Both the position numbers and the translations under genes were made by a program. Positions 57,698 to 60,557 of a stretch of DNA of 64,000 nucleotides are shown in pieces. How positions within the stretch are numbered: position 1 is the first letter of the stretch; each line of letters starts with the position of its first letter. Source of the DNA: Prescottella defluvii (lineage in GTDB: Bacteria > Actinomycetota > Actinomycetes > Mycobacteriales > Mycobacteriaceae); NCBI RefSeq assembly GCF_000738775.1, contig NZ_JPOC01000045.1:1-64000 (forward strand), given 5' to 3'. The notes under the pieces are model-generated. The model had not been told where the DNA came from, ran no database searches, and saw only the letters and a program-made list of their open reading frames with translations.

Positions 57698-58030
57698 TCA
57701 GTCGAGTTCGAGCCTCGCCCTGATCCGGTCCATCCGCTCCCTCAGCTCGTCCTGTGTCACGATGCCGCGGTCGAGCAGTGTGTGCGCGGTGGTGATGGCG
57801 GACCGGGAGTGGACGGGGAACTCGCTGTAGACGGTCTCGCCCAGCTCGTCCTCGGTGTGCCGGCGTTCCAGGTTGTCCCAGGCGCCGCGCCAGGACAGGC
57901 ATTCGACGGTGGCCTGCATCGCCGATTCCCACGGATCGGGTTTGCGGTCGGTGTCGGGCAGGGTGCCGTCCCGCGTGGCTCCGTCCTGCAGTGTGCCGAG
58001 GATGACCTCGTACCCCTGTGCGGTCGTCAC
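57698..58030 (-). CDS. P15K/P14K-like activator of the Co-enzyme (beta-N paralogue)
   Basis: A 110-residue protein whose segment ECLSWRGAWDNLERRHTEDELGETVYSEFP closely parallels ECLAWRGAWNAEMRRRAEVDLGETQYFGLP of the scnB-like subunit encoded upstream; it ends DELRERMDRIRARLE in both. Nitrile hydratase and thiocyanate hydrolase operons carry just such a small beta-like protein (P14K, P15K), which escorts the metal subunit during cobalt insertion and subunit swapping. The GTG at 58030 overlaps the stop of the metal-subunit gene (GTGA). It is the last gene of the cbt-scn unit and converges with the OsmC gene. Confidence 0.75.
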   Translation of the reverse strand: MTTAQGYEVILGTLQDGATRDGTLPDTDRKPDPWESAMQATVECLSWRGAWDNLERRHTEDELGETVYSEFPVHSRSAITTAHTLLDRGIVTQDELRERMDRIRARLELD

Positions 58031-58752
58031 CGGCCACCTCCCGAAGACGGCGCGGACGGCGCGGACGGCGCGGACGGCGCCTTGGATGCGTCCCAGTCGG
58101 CCGACGGCAGTGCCACGCCGATCATGGTGTCGCGGGTGACGATCTTCTCGAGCTGTTCCTCGGACCACCCCTCGGTGCCCTCGGGTTGCATCGGCATGAC
58201 CATGAATCTCGACTTCTGATTCGAATCATGTACCCGCACTTCGACATCGGACGGGAAGTGCAGTCCGAACTCGGCGAGGACCTCACGCGGCCGGCGGACC
58301 ATGCGGCGGCGATAGTTCGGGGTCCGGTACCAGTCCGGCGACATCCCCAGCACGGGCCGTGGGTAGCACGAGCACAGGGTGCACACGATCACGTTGTGCA
58401 CCTGCGGGGTGTTCTCGAGGACGTAGAAGTAGGTGTAGTCGCTCGGGGTGCCGGTGCCCGTCGGATCGGTCCAGTCGATGCCGACTTCCTTGCTGGCCTC
58501 GGTGCCGTCCTCGAGCAGGCGCTTCTTGAACTCGGGGTCGGTCCAGGCCTTCGCGACCATCCGTGATCCGCCGGACGGGCCGATCGATTCGGCCCACTCG
58601 GAGAACCTGCGGTGGTCCTCGGTGGAGAACAGTCCCTTCTCGATCGCGAGTTCGCGCAGTGCGAGTTCGAGTACCTCGAACTCGCTGATCTCCTCGGAGA
58701 TGCGGATGGGTGCGTGGGCATCCTTGCCGGAATGGTCGTGTGAGTCGCTCAC
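58027..58752 (-). CDS. scnC: Thiocyanate hydrolase gamma-like / Co-type nitrile hydratase alpha-family metal subunit
   Basis: A 241-residue NHase-alpha-family protein. The claw motif Cys-Thr-Leu-Cys-Ser-Cys is at 124-129 (VCTLCSC indicates cobalt rather than iron), where two Cys are post-translationally oxidised and bind Co(III). Two features favour thiocyanate hydrolase (SCN- to COS and NH3): the length is near the 243 residues I recall for ScnC, whereas NHase alpha is about 200; and Tyr-Pro-Arg follows the claw (Arg132), matching gamma-Arg136 of SCNase where NHases have Trp. A Ser/Ala/Pro tail (225-240) is extra. GTG at 58752 follows AGGAGGAG and overlaps the scnA stop. Confidence 0.78.
   Translation of the reverse strand: MSDSHDHSGKDAHAPIRISEEISEFEVLELALRELAIEKGLFSTEDHRRFSEWAESIGPSGGSRMVAKAWTDPEFKKRLLEDGTEASKEVGIDWTDPTGTGTPSDYTYFYVLENTPQVHNVIVCTLCSCYPRPVLGMSPDWYRTPNYRRRMVRRPREVLAEFGLHFPSDVEVRVHDSNQKSRFMVMPMQPEGTEGWSEEQLEKIVTRDTMIGVALPSADWDASKAPSAPSAPSAPSSGGGR
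58047..58081. repeat. 9-bp tandem repeat in the scnC tail
   Basis: ACGGCGCGG occurs three times in succession plus a partial copy. On the minus strand it encodes the Ala-Pro-Ser triplets at the C-terminus of the metal subunit. Perfect copies suggest recent slippage. Confidence 0.75.
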
Positions 58753-59057
58753 TTCTCCTCCTGCCGGTCCTTGTCGGGAGCCCGGAGCCAGCCCTCCGCG
58801 CATTCGGTTTCGAGCGTGTCGATGTCGTATCCGGTGTAGCGGGGCCACAGGTCGGTCTGTTTGAACGAGACGACGTAGAACGGTTCCGTGCGGCCGGTCT
58901 CGAGCTTGTCGAACGCCTCGTCCTCCGGGATCACCCAGTCTGGCCGGTGGGCGACGACGACGCCCGTCTGGTTTCGCACGAATGCCTGTGTGCGCGTGTG
59001 GAAGATGCTGGTCTGATCCTTGACGACCACGCGGTCGCCGATCTTGAACTTCGGCAT
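58749..59057 (-). CDS. scnA: Thiocyanate hydrolase alpha-like subunit (NHase beta C-terminal half)
   Basis: A 102-residue SH3-barrel protein: FKIGDRVVVKDQTSIFHTRTQAFVRNQTGVVVAH is the NHase-beta C-terminal signature, with the His-Thr-Arg (20-22) whose Arg contacts the oxidised Cys ligands in family structures; PFYVVSFKQTDLWPRYTG follows. In NHase this is the C-terminal part of one beta chain; here, as in thiocyanate hydrolase, it is a separate gene. The ATG overlaps the TGA of the scnB-like gene by one base, and its stop overlaps scnC. Confidence 0.8.
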   Translation of the reverse strand: MPKFKIGDRVVVKDQTSIFHTRTQAFVRNQTGVVVAHRPDWVIPEDEAFDKLETGRTEPFYVVSFKQTDLWPRYTGYDIDTLETECAEGWLRAPDKDRQEEK

Positions 59058-59488
59058 CACTTCCTCGCCTCCTGGAGACGTGCCCGCACCTCGTCGATCT
59101 TGTCCGAGAGTTCGTCGAGGGGGACGAGTCCCTTGTCGACCATCACCTTGGCGGCGACGGTGATCCATCGCGCGTAGTACGGGAGTCCGAAGTACTGGGT
59201 CTCGCCGAGGTCGACCTCGGCGCGGCGCCGCATCTCCGCGTTCCATGCGCCGCGCCATGCGAGGCACTCGCACGTGACGTACGTGTTCATCTCCCAGGCC
59301 TCTTCCTCCTTCTCGAGGTACTCGACCGGGAGGGCGGGTTGCCCGCCGACGTCGTGCAGGACGTGCCGCAGGATGTCGTACTGCGCGTTGGTGATCGAGT
59401 ACGGCGAGTCCTGGGCGTCGTGGACTGCCGGGGTGATCTTCGCCAGACCGTCGGTGAGGGTCTGGAATTGTGCCTGATTGGTACTCAT
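59057..59488 (-). CDS. scnB: Thiocyanate hydrolase beta-like subunit (NHase beta N-terminal half)
   Basis: A 143-residue helical protein corresponding to the N-terminal half of NHase beta. CECLAWRGAWNAEMRRRAEVDLGETQYFGLPYYARWITVAAKVMVDKGLV is the conserved core, with an Arg cluster (87-89) that could line the anion-binding pocket. Thiobacillus ScnB is of similar size (about 157, from memory), and the order scnB-scnA-scnC is the same. ATG at 59488 follows GGGAGA. It is preceded by cbtA with a 65-bp gap, so the promoter is probably that of cbtB, or an internal one in the gap. Confidence 0.78.
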   Translation of the reverse strand: MSTNQAQFQTLTDGLAKITPAVHDAQDSPYSITNAQYDILRHVLHDVGGQPALPVEYLEKEEEAWEMNTYVTCECLAWRGAWNAEMRRRAEVDLGETQYFGLPYYARWITVAAKVMVDKGLVPLDELSDKIDEVRARLQEARK

Positions 59489-59553
59489 GGAGGTCTCCCG
59501 TCCATGTGGTTTCGGCGATTCCTGTTGTGTCCGAATCGTTGTCGAGTCCCCTC

Positions 59554-60372
59554 CTAGGGTCGCGTGGTGTCGGTCGGTGCGTGTTCCGGTGTGGCGGCGG
59601 GGGAGGCGGCGCCGCGTTGTGCCCGCTCGGTGAGGTATGCGAACGCCACACCCAGGCTCAGCCACAGGGTGGCCTGCGTCGCCAGCGAAGATATCCGGAA
59701 CTGCCACAACAGCGTGGCGGGGAAGTCCTCGGCCACTTCGTTCACGGTCGGAAGGACGAGGTATCCGACGGTGACGATCGCGAGGAAGGTGACGATCGCC
59801 GCGGCGGTCCGTAATGTCCAGTAGCGTTGTGACGCAAGTTTCTTGGCGACGTAGACGGCGGCACCCACCGCGGCGAGCCCGAGCGCGAGCGCGGCGACCC
59901 ACAGCAGTGTCCGTTCGTTCATGGTGTCCGGATCGCCGACCGCGGGTGGATTGGCCGGGTACTTGAAGAACGGGACGGCCTCGACGGCGAGCCAACCGGC
60001 TCCGGCCAAGCCGAGCGCGAGCAGTGGGCCGGACATCGCAGTGAACCGGCGTGCGTAGTGTGCGGCGACACCGAAGATCGCGCCGAACGCGACCCCTGCC
60101 AGGGATGTTGCGAGGATCAGGCCCGCTCGCTGCCCGTCCCGGGAGACCAGGGGTTCGTCGCTGTCGGAGTGCGAGTGCGGGGCGGCGGGCTCCCCGTCGT
60201 CGTGGGCGGCGGTCGCGTCGGCGCCCGCACCCGCTGACTCCTCGATCTCGATGGCGGCCGCGACGTGCGGTTCGCCGAGGGCGAATGCGACTGCGCCGGT
60301 GAGGAGTCCGGCGATCAGTCCGGCGAACAGGCCTCGTAGCACCAGGCTCTTCAGTGATCCTGTCAGTGGCAC
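59554..60372 (-). CDS. cbtA: CbtA cobalt transporter subunit
   Basis: A 272-residue membrane protein with five or six helices. It opens SLVLRGLFAGLIAGLLTGAVAFALGEPHVAAAIEIEE (CbtA first helix followed by an acidic/His loop), then a His-rich loop HDDGEPAAPHSHSDSDEPLVS (about 55-78). FFKYPANPPAVGDPDT is a family signature. With CbtB it forms a cobalt importer, usually B12-linked; here it stands with a cobalt enzyme cluster. GTG at 60372 overlaps the cbtB stop by 10 bp. Confidence 0.87.
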   Translation of the reverse strand: MPLTGSLKSLVLRGLFAGLIAGLLTGAVAFALGEPHVAAAIEIEESAGAGADATAAHDDGEPAAPHSHSDSDEPLVSRDGQRAGLILATSLAGVAFGAIFGVAAHYARRFTAMSGPLLALGLAGAGWLAVEAVPFFKYPANPPAVGDPDTMNERTLLWVAALALGLAAVGAAVYVAKKLASQRYWTLRTAAAIVTFLAIVTVGYLVLPTVNEVAEDFPATLLWQFRISSLATQATLWLSLGVAFAYLTERAQRGAASPAATPEHAPTDTTRP

Positions 60373-60557
60373 GGGAGCCCCAGGAGGTGCCGGCCGTCGT
60401 GCATCAGTTCGTGCATGTACATCCCGGTTCGGGAGATCGCGCCCTGGTCGAAGCCGACGAGATAGAGCGTCACGAGGGCGAGGAGCACCACGCCCACCGC
60501 AACGAGCGCGACGCCGACCGATTCGATTGCCCGATTGGGGCTGTGGGCGAGAGTCAT
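60363..60557 (-). CDS. cbtB: CbtB cobalt transporter subunit
   Basis: A 64-residue single-helix protein (helix about 15-36) ending in a His-rich C-terminus HELMHDGRHLLGLPCH, the CbtB metal-binding tail. It is the first gene of the minus-strand unit cbtB-cbtA-scnB-scnA-scnC-P15K. AGGAGGAA lies just before the ATG at 60557. The start faces the tandem-HxlR gene across 281 bp, which contain a perfect palindrome. Confidence 0.88.
   Translation of the reverse strand: MTLAHSPNRAIESVGVALVAVGVVLLALVTLYLVGFDQGAISRTGMYMHELMHDGRHLLGLPCH

Follow-up and report, generated by a model that had tools for sequence, protein, structure and literature searches.

Thiocyanate hydrolase (SCNase) of Thiobacillus thioparus THI115 has three subunits and is accompanied by the protein P15K (ScnABC + P15K; PDB 2DD4). 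Here we describe the cbtBA-scnBAC-P15K locus on a 64,000-nucleotide stretch of the Prescottella defluvii contig NZ_JPOC01000045.1 (hereafter, the window). Judged by its sequence, this locus is very probably one transcription unit for a cobalt-dependent SCNase of the T. thioparus type. It shares with the T. thioparus system the three subunits, the VCTLCSCYPR loop, and both the RRR motif and the N-terminal extension of the beta subunit; its beta-alpha-gamma-P15K-like gene order is found in loci on the T. thioparus side of the family (e.g., L062). It differs in its actinobacterial host, its position on a sister branch, the presence of a CbtBA importer within the same tight unit, and a shorter ScnA (102 rather than 126 amino acids). 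In addition, its six genes include neither a NitT/TauT transporter nor a sulfide:quinone reductase.

SCNases of actinobacteria have been recognized and named before, and Actinobacteria are described as well represented in passages of PMC10098168. Loci of Mycobacterium and Mycolicibacterium fall in the same clade as the window and carry the same two arginines (gamma-Arg136 and beta-Arg90 in T. thioparus numbering); M. smegmatis itself, with MSMEG_6266/6267, lies outside our tree sample. These loci mostly have a P15K-like gene after gamma, but differ in that their beta halves are fused, VCTLCSC is replaced by VCALCSC in many, and no cobalt importer was recognized nearby. The plasmid locus of the Co-type nitrile hydratase (NHase) of Rhodococcus rhodochrous (L119) likewise brings together a metalloenzyme, an accessory protein and a HoxN-type nickel/cobalt transporter; in strain J1, such a transporter is NhlF. 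There, however, the beta chain is fused, Trp follows CSCYP, Phe occupies the beta-Arg90 position, and an amidase lies alongside. Finally, Rhizobium-type split-beta NHases (L117, L071) have CbtBA, in divergent orientation, beside a split-beta enzyme with CSCYPR, but these lie outside the SCNase clade, have Lys at the beta-Arg90 position, and have a beta N-like gene that follows alpha. To these systems we add the cbtBA-scnBAC-P15K order, present in nine of ten same-genus relatives, and a conserved upstream palindrome.

Organization of the locus

The six open reading frames (ORFs) lie on the minus strand between positions 57698 and 60557, each with start and stop in frame, and every one of their products scored above the Pfam gathering score (Table 1). 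Four of the five junctions overlap: cbtB/cbtA by 10 bases, scnB/scnA by 1, and scnA/scnC and scnC/P15K by 4 each. The only non-overlapping junction, cbtA to scnB, is a 65-base gap. Start codons were picked by eye; most are preceded by a purine-rich stretch resembling a ribosome site, the CbtA start being the least clear. Thus, the ORFs, the Pfam matches and the junctions all agree with the initial annotation, which had described six minus-strand genes, nearly all overlapping.

Our same-genus set comprised 14 genomes including that of the window, of which 11 matched TIGR03887, the NCBI equivalog model for SCNase gamma, and three (G003, G007, G011) did not; over all 101 genomes searched, 39 matched this model and 25 passed its cutoff. 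We fetched the loci of all ten matching relatives and found the six-gene arrangement in nine of them, a conservation that a fortuitous series of ORFs would not show.

The predicted enzyme groups with thiocyanate hydrolase

We found that ScnC passed the TIGR03887 cutoff (386.9 bits; cutoff, 291.45) and fell below that of TIGR01323, the NHase alpha equivalog (228.5 bits; cutoff, 249.85). The NHase beta model, TIGR03888, gave 39.9 and 56.9 bits for the separate halves, whose scores could hardly reach a cutoff (152.2) set for the full-length chain. In the PDB, the best match of ScnC was the T. thioparus SCNase gamma subunit (2dd4_C; 1.2e-92), followed by its variant 3vyg and then by NHases, and the best match of ScnA was SCNase alpha (2dd4_A; 3.2e-16), ahead of NHase beta chains. 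ScnB as a single phmmer query found no match in the PDB; a profile of ScnB and nine relatives matched SCNase beta (2dd4_B) at 5.5e-75 and NHase beta chains at about 4e-6, and the N-terminal extension of ScnB aligned with that of 2dd4_B. The P15K-like protein alone likewise matched nothing in the PDB. Its gene encodes an NHase_beta_N relative in the place expected for P15K, right after scnC, and is assigned by family and position; most SCNase-clade loci have such a beta-N-like gene directly after gamma. The scnC-like gene is the only NHase_alpha gene in the genome.

We next consider the tree of the metal subunit, whose 106 rows comprise 101 loci (80 named loci, 12 relatives and 9 plasmid loci), the window and four PDB rows; the L023 and L113 rows are identical. 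The window gamma and 2dd4_C share a 59-row clade with support of 100/99, and three NHase PDB rows and 44 loci fall outside it; the tree program warned that the long NHase-side branches L120, L101, L093 and L100, which were included, may join falsely. The 80 named loci are the best 80 of at least 589 confirmed relatives, and the sample therefore leans towards the query; no relatives were confirmed in viral contigs. Clustering with ordinary NHases, which the initial annotation had named as the outcome that would speak against an SCNase, was not seen among the NHases sampled.

These results bear on the alternative that the locus encodes a three-subunit NHase, either like ToyJKL of the toyocamycin cluster or of the proteobacterial split-beta kind, that hydrates nitriles and only resembles SCNase. 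The missed NHase alpha cutoff and the grouping of gamma with 2dd4_C, apart from the NHase-like loci and PDB rows (ToyJ was left out of the tree), both argue against it. We consider this alternative highly improbable, also in light of the residues described below.

Residues that separate thiocyanate hydrolases from nitrile hydratase-like enzymes

The initial annotation had rested the SCNase assignment on two features, separate beta halves and an Arg directly after Cys-x-x-Cys-x-Cys-Tyr-Pro, and neither proved diagnostic. We compared 56 SCNase-clade loci with 44 others, having dropped L113 as a duplicate of L023. The Arg is indeed present here (Arg132, equivalent to gamma-Arg136) and in all SCNase-clade loci (56/56), but 38 of the 44 others share it, the remainder having Trp (5) or Lys (1); because it is so common outside the clade, it is weak as a sole criterion. 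Beta-chain splitting fared no better: both halves lie in one ORF in the Mycobacterium and Mycolicibacterium SCNase loci seen, and many NHase-like loci have the halves apart. We discarded both features as diagnostics, and their frequency outside the SCNase clade is the one point in favor of the NHase alternative.

In contrast, the position equivalent to beta-Arg90 (Arg87 here, in the RRR motif of ScnB) was Arg in 56/56 SCNase-clade loci and in only one (L081) of 43 other beta rows. These 43 rows came from 42 of the 44 loci (none from L066 or L099, two from L075), with the accessory copies of L119 and L121 left out and the catalytic beta-like gene of NHase-like loci taken by assumption. From these results, we conclude that beta-Arg90, rather than gamma-Arg136 or split beta chains, separates the SCNase from the NHase-like groups. 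Both positions reportedly set substrate choice in the T. thioparus enzyme, and the PDB alignment has Trp at the gamma-Arg position in 3vyg.

Two further groups were apparent in these alignments. A broad, mostly proteobacterial set of split-beta NHase-like loci with CSCYPR (L064-L100, e.g., L069, L072 and L088, with L116, L117 and L122) groups neither with the SCNase clade nor with classic NHases; most of its members have Leu or Lys where SCNases have beta-Arg90. In addition, the VCTLCSC motif reads VCALCSC in 18 of the 56 SCNase-clade loci (L030, L033, L035, L038 and 14 others), every one of which has fused beta halves; Thr or Ser is normal at that Ala position in Co- and Fe-type enzymes.

Together, these features suggest how the products may work. 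CbtBA would import Co2+, as its family and position suggest, and ScnB, ScnA and ScnC would assemble into an alpha-beta-gamma enzyme, SCNase being characteristically an (alpha beta gamma)4 complex. By homology with T. thioparus, the VCTLCSCYPR loop of ScnC would bind non-corrin Co(III) with oxidized cysteines, and P15K, which is related to the beta N-half, would assist metal loading of ScnC like its T. thioparus namesake. The two arginines, gamma-R132 and beta-R87, would then hold thiocyanate for hydrolysis to ammonia and carbonyl sulfide (COS).

Linkage of the putative cobalt importer to the enzyme

The adjacent genes upstream of scnBAC encode proteins that pass the Pfam cutoffs for CbtB (55.1 bits; cutoff, 27) and CbtA (250.2 bits; cutoff, 30.7). 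We infer that cbtBA encodes a divergent CbtAB, with cobalt specificity suggested by context. The pair lies directly upstream of scnBAC in the nine relatives noted above; one of these, G013 (locus L111), has another cbtBA some 3.4 kb away. A lone cbtB directly precedes scnB in G033 and G035/R. wratislaviensis; their full cbtBA is found some 4 and 2.7 kb farther upstream.

More widely, we recognized a cobalt/nickel importer, of four kinds (CbtA/CbtB, CbiM, HoxN, HupE), near 22 of the 56 SCNase-clade loci and 9 of the 44 loci outside the clade; in three of the 22 (L028, L029, L055), only CbtB was found. These counts are lower bounds, because the loci vary in length and three of the families were searched with single sequences. 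CbtBA also adjoins scnC, on the opposite side of the enzyme, on a Roseomonas plasmid, and is placed differently next to SCNase or NHase-like genes in a proteobacterial metagenome-assembled genome (MAG; L063) and in Rhizobium. This varied placement suggests repeated origins of the linkage.

The initial annotation had called cobalt supply, assembly factor and enzyme in one unit a striking package. The link between cobalt transporters and SCNase is indeed real and recurrent, but it is already in print: according to passages of PMC5328954, the SCNase genes of T. thioparus (DSM 505) have a cobalt transporter subunit encoded upstream, and Tv. thiocyanodenitrificans has a different cobalt uptake system. 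For CbtBA beside SCNase in particular, nothing obvious turned up in the literature, in searches none of which paired both terms directly; passages of PMC2667541 do not mention thiocyanate.

Observations that weigh against the proposed function

Several observations weigh against a cobalt-dependent SCNase with its own importer. Against the NCBI models, CbtA reached only 44.8 of the 182.9 bits required by TIGR02458 and CbtB 20.6 of 64.4 for TIGR02459, both far below cutoff, and Pfam itself grades the two families as ‘probable’ cobalt transporters. The tenth same-genus relative, G005, has a mycobacterial-type fused SCNase without cbt genes, and in G013 the adjacent cbtA ORF (L111 7544-8089) has 181 rather than 272 amino acids, its middle seemingly missing. 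Nine of the 22 importer-bearing SCNase-clade loci come from this genus, and 34 of the 56 have no recognized cobalt/nickel importer in the flanking DNA examined. The enzyme itself belongs to a Nocardiaceae branch (the window, same-genus relatives, Nocardia, R. wratislaviensis and one MAG; 17 rows, support 100/94) that is sister to, not inside, the branch holding the characterized enzyme and the mycobacteria, so that the substrate is carried across one deep fork. Lastly, we found no candidate COS hydrolase partner in two of the three carbonic anhydrase-type (Pro_CA) genes of the genome: one was closest to the carbonic anhydrase 2a5v/1ym3, and the other, beside a cyanase-like gene, to ordinary beta-type carbonic anhydrases, matching COS hydrolase 3vqj only at 7e-5. 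The third lies in an 800-codon open frame.

Two alternatives draw on these observations. First, cbtBA might serve general cobalt or B12 needs and stand beside scnBAC by accident: the genome has a second cbtA elsewhere, and no importer was recognized beside the Mycobacterium and Mycolicibacterium SCNase loci. We regard this as unlikely, as cbtA overlaps cbtB and ends 65 bases from scnB, the gene order is kept in nine of ten same-genus loci, and CbtBA recurs in other positions beside such enzymes in Roseomonas, L063 and Rhizobium. Second, an SCNase-family enzyme of the Nocardiaceae branch might act on another small C-N substrate, such as cyanide, an organic thiocyanate or a natural nitrile. The separate branch would fit this possibility, as would the finding that no identified neighbor points to sulfur oxidation and neither of the two Pro_CA genes examined resembles a COS hydrolase gene. 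However, both pocket arginines are conserved, ScnC matches 2dd4_C strongly, and gamma is 66-70% identical to the sister-branch relatives aligned; we consider a different substrate improbable. A thiocyanate hydrolase with its own cobalt importer, the candidate put forward in the initial annotation, remains the best reading of the sequence, supported by the TIGR03887 match, the clade shared with 2dd4_C, the beta-Arg90 equivalent and the adjacent cbtBA.

A conserved dyad upstream of cbtB

Upstream of cbtB we found an operator-like dyad (Table 1), present within one mismatch in the window and in seven of the nine same-genus loci that carry the operon; it is absent from L104, and the L111 sequence departs from it at two positions. 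Its 11 fixed bases have one exact match in the whole genome. With up to one mismatch, there were 28 genome-wide matches versus 103 for a reversed control, and thus no excess and no genome-wide regulon signal. The evidence for the dyad is that it is conserved at a single promoter, rather than that it is rare or marks a regulon. Two one-mismatch matches also occur at unrelated places in L056 and L061. An Rfam search near the operon gave nothing above threshold and three sub-threshold snoRNA matches.

An HxlR-type gene is adjacent to the operon in the window and L111, lies about 3 kb away in L102, L103 and L107, and was not detected in the remaining fetched same-genus loci. We did not adopt this regulator as the controller of the operon, as its adjacency is limited to the window and L111.

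Neighboring genes

Among the neighbors identified by model (OsmC, HxlR) or by eye (MFS-type, ClpC-like, acyl-CoA synthetase-like, FrnE-like), we found no amidase and no sulfur-oxidation gene. The acyl-CoA synthetase-like gene recurs near the operon in 8 of 10 same-genus loci, and FrnE-like ORFs occur near it in L112 and L113 too.

Table 1. Positions of the operon genes, the upstream dyad and neighboring features in the window, and of lone cbtB genes in three other loci.
Feature	Position	Strand	Length (amino acids)	Description	Match or basis
cbtB	60363..60557	-	64	probable cobalt transporter subunit	Pfam PF09489 8.3e-15
cbtA	59554..60372	-	272	probable cobalt transporter subunit; GTG start	Pfam PF09490 3.4e-74
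scnB-like	59057..59488	-	143	SCNase beta-like; N-terminal half of NHase beta chain	NHase_beta_N 2.5e-18
scnA-like	58749..59057	-	102	SCNase alpha-like; C-terminal half of NHase beta chain	NHase_beta_C 1.2e-18
scnC-like	58027..58752	-	241	SCNase gamma-like metal subunit; GTG start; VCTLCSCYPR motif	NHase_alpha 5.1e-78
P15K-like	57698..58030	-	110	assembly/activator protein-like; GTG start	NHase_beta_N 2.5e-8
Dyad GTTGTG-N7-CACAA(C)	60686..60704	-		operator-like; upstream of cbtB	conserved among same-genus loci
OsmC-family gene	57260-57694	+		convergent; downstream of operon	model match
Regulator gene	60839..61831	+		divergent; upstream of operon; two HxlR-type stretches	PF01638 9.1e-34
Acyl-CoA synthetase-like gene	61877-63580				named by eye
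DsbA/FrnE-like gene	about 63600-64000				named by eye
Lone CbtB without CbtA	L023 5047-5232; L112 5245-5436; L113 5182-5367			directly before scnB; complete cbtBA ~2.7-4 kb upstream	

Physiological role and significance

Tables in PMC4617892 list MSMEG_6266/6267 of M. smegmatis (SCNase beta and gamma) with nitrogen-limitation expression ratios of 3.68 and 3.42; the locus numbers of the two genes lie close to those of an ammonium transporter, glutamine synthetase and glutamate synthase (6259-6263) in the same tables. Passages of PMC11001197 report fold changes of 2.37 and 2.35 for the two proteins in a PII mutant on nitrate. As the response of the M. smegmatis homologue to nitrogen limitation suggests, the gain for this heterotroph is probably nitrogen. 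The likeliest role would be nitrogen scavenging from thiocyanate, perhaps with detoxification too, and COS would be the other product. Neither of the two Pro_CA genes examined looks like a COS hydrolase gene, so the COS may simply escape. Elsewhere in the genome, the cyanase-like gene, a carbonic anhydrase gene and a divergent LysR-type regulator gene (L129 505-2680) form, by eye, an apparent cyn operon.

Tentatively, we suggest a more specific and rather doubtful model: the cobalt and enzyme unit might be separately controlled by a regulator that reads the GTTGTG-N7-CACAAC dyad and co-induces cobalt import and thiocyanate hydrolysis, with the Nocardiaceae-branch enzyme taking nitrogen from thiocyanate and releasing COS. 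If so, Rhodococcus-like heterotrophs would be a soil source of COS, although this group is otherwise listed among COS consumers; passages of PMC7308577 list a Rhodococcus isolate among COS degraders.

The locus opens no new class of system. It does place an actinobacterial SCNase and its putative metal supply in one cassette that is clean, testable and useful for expressing active enzyme, and beta-Arg90 provides a usable sequence rule for telling SCNase from many split-beta NHase-like enzymes. The locus is also a candidate for a biological origin of soil COS and ammonia.

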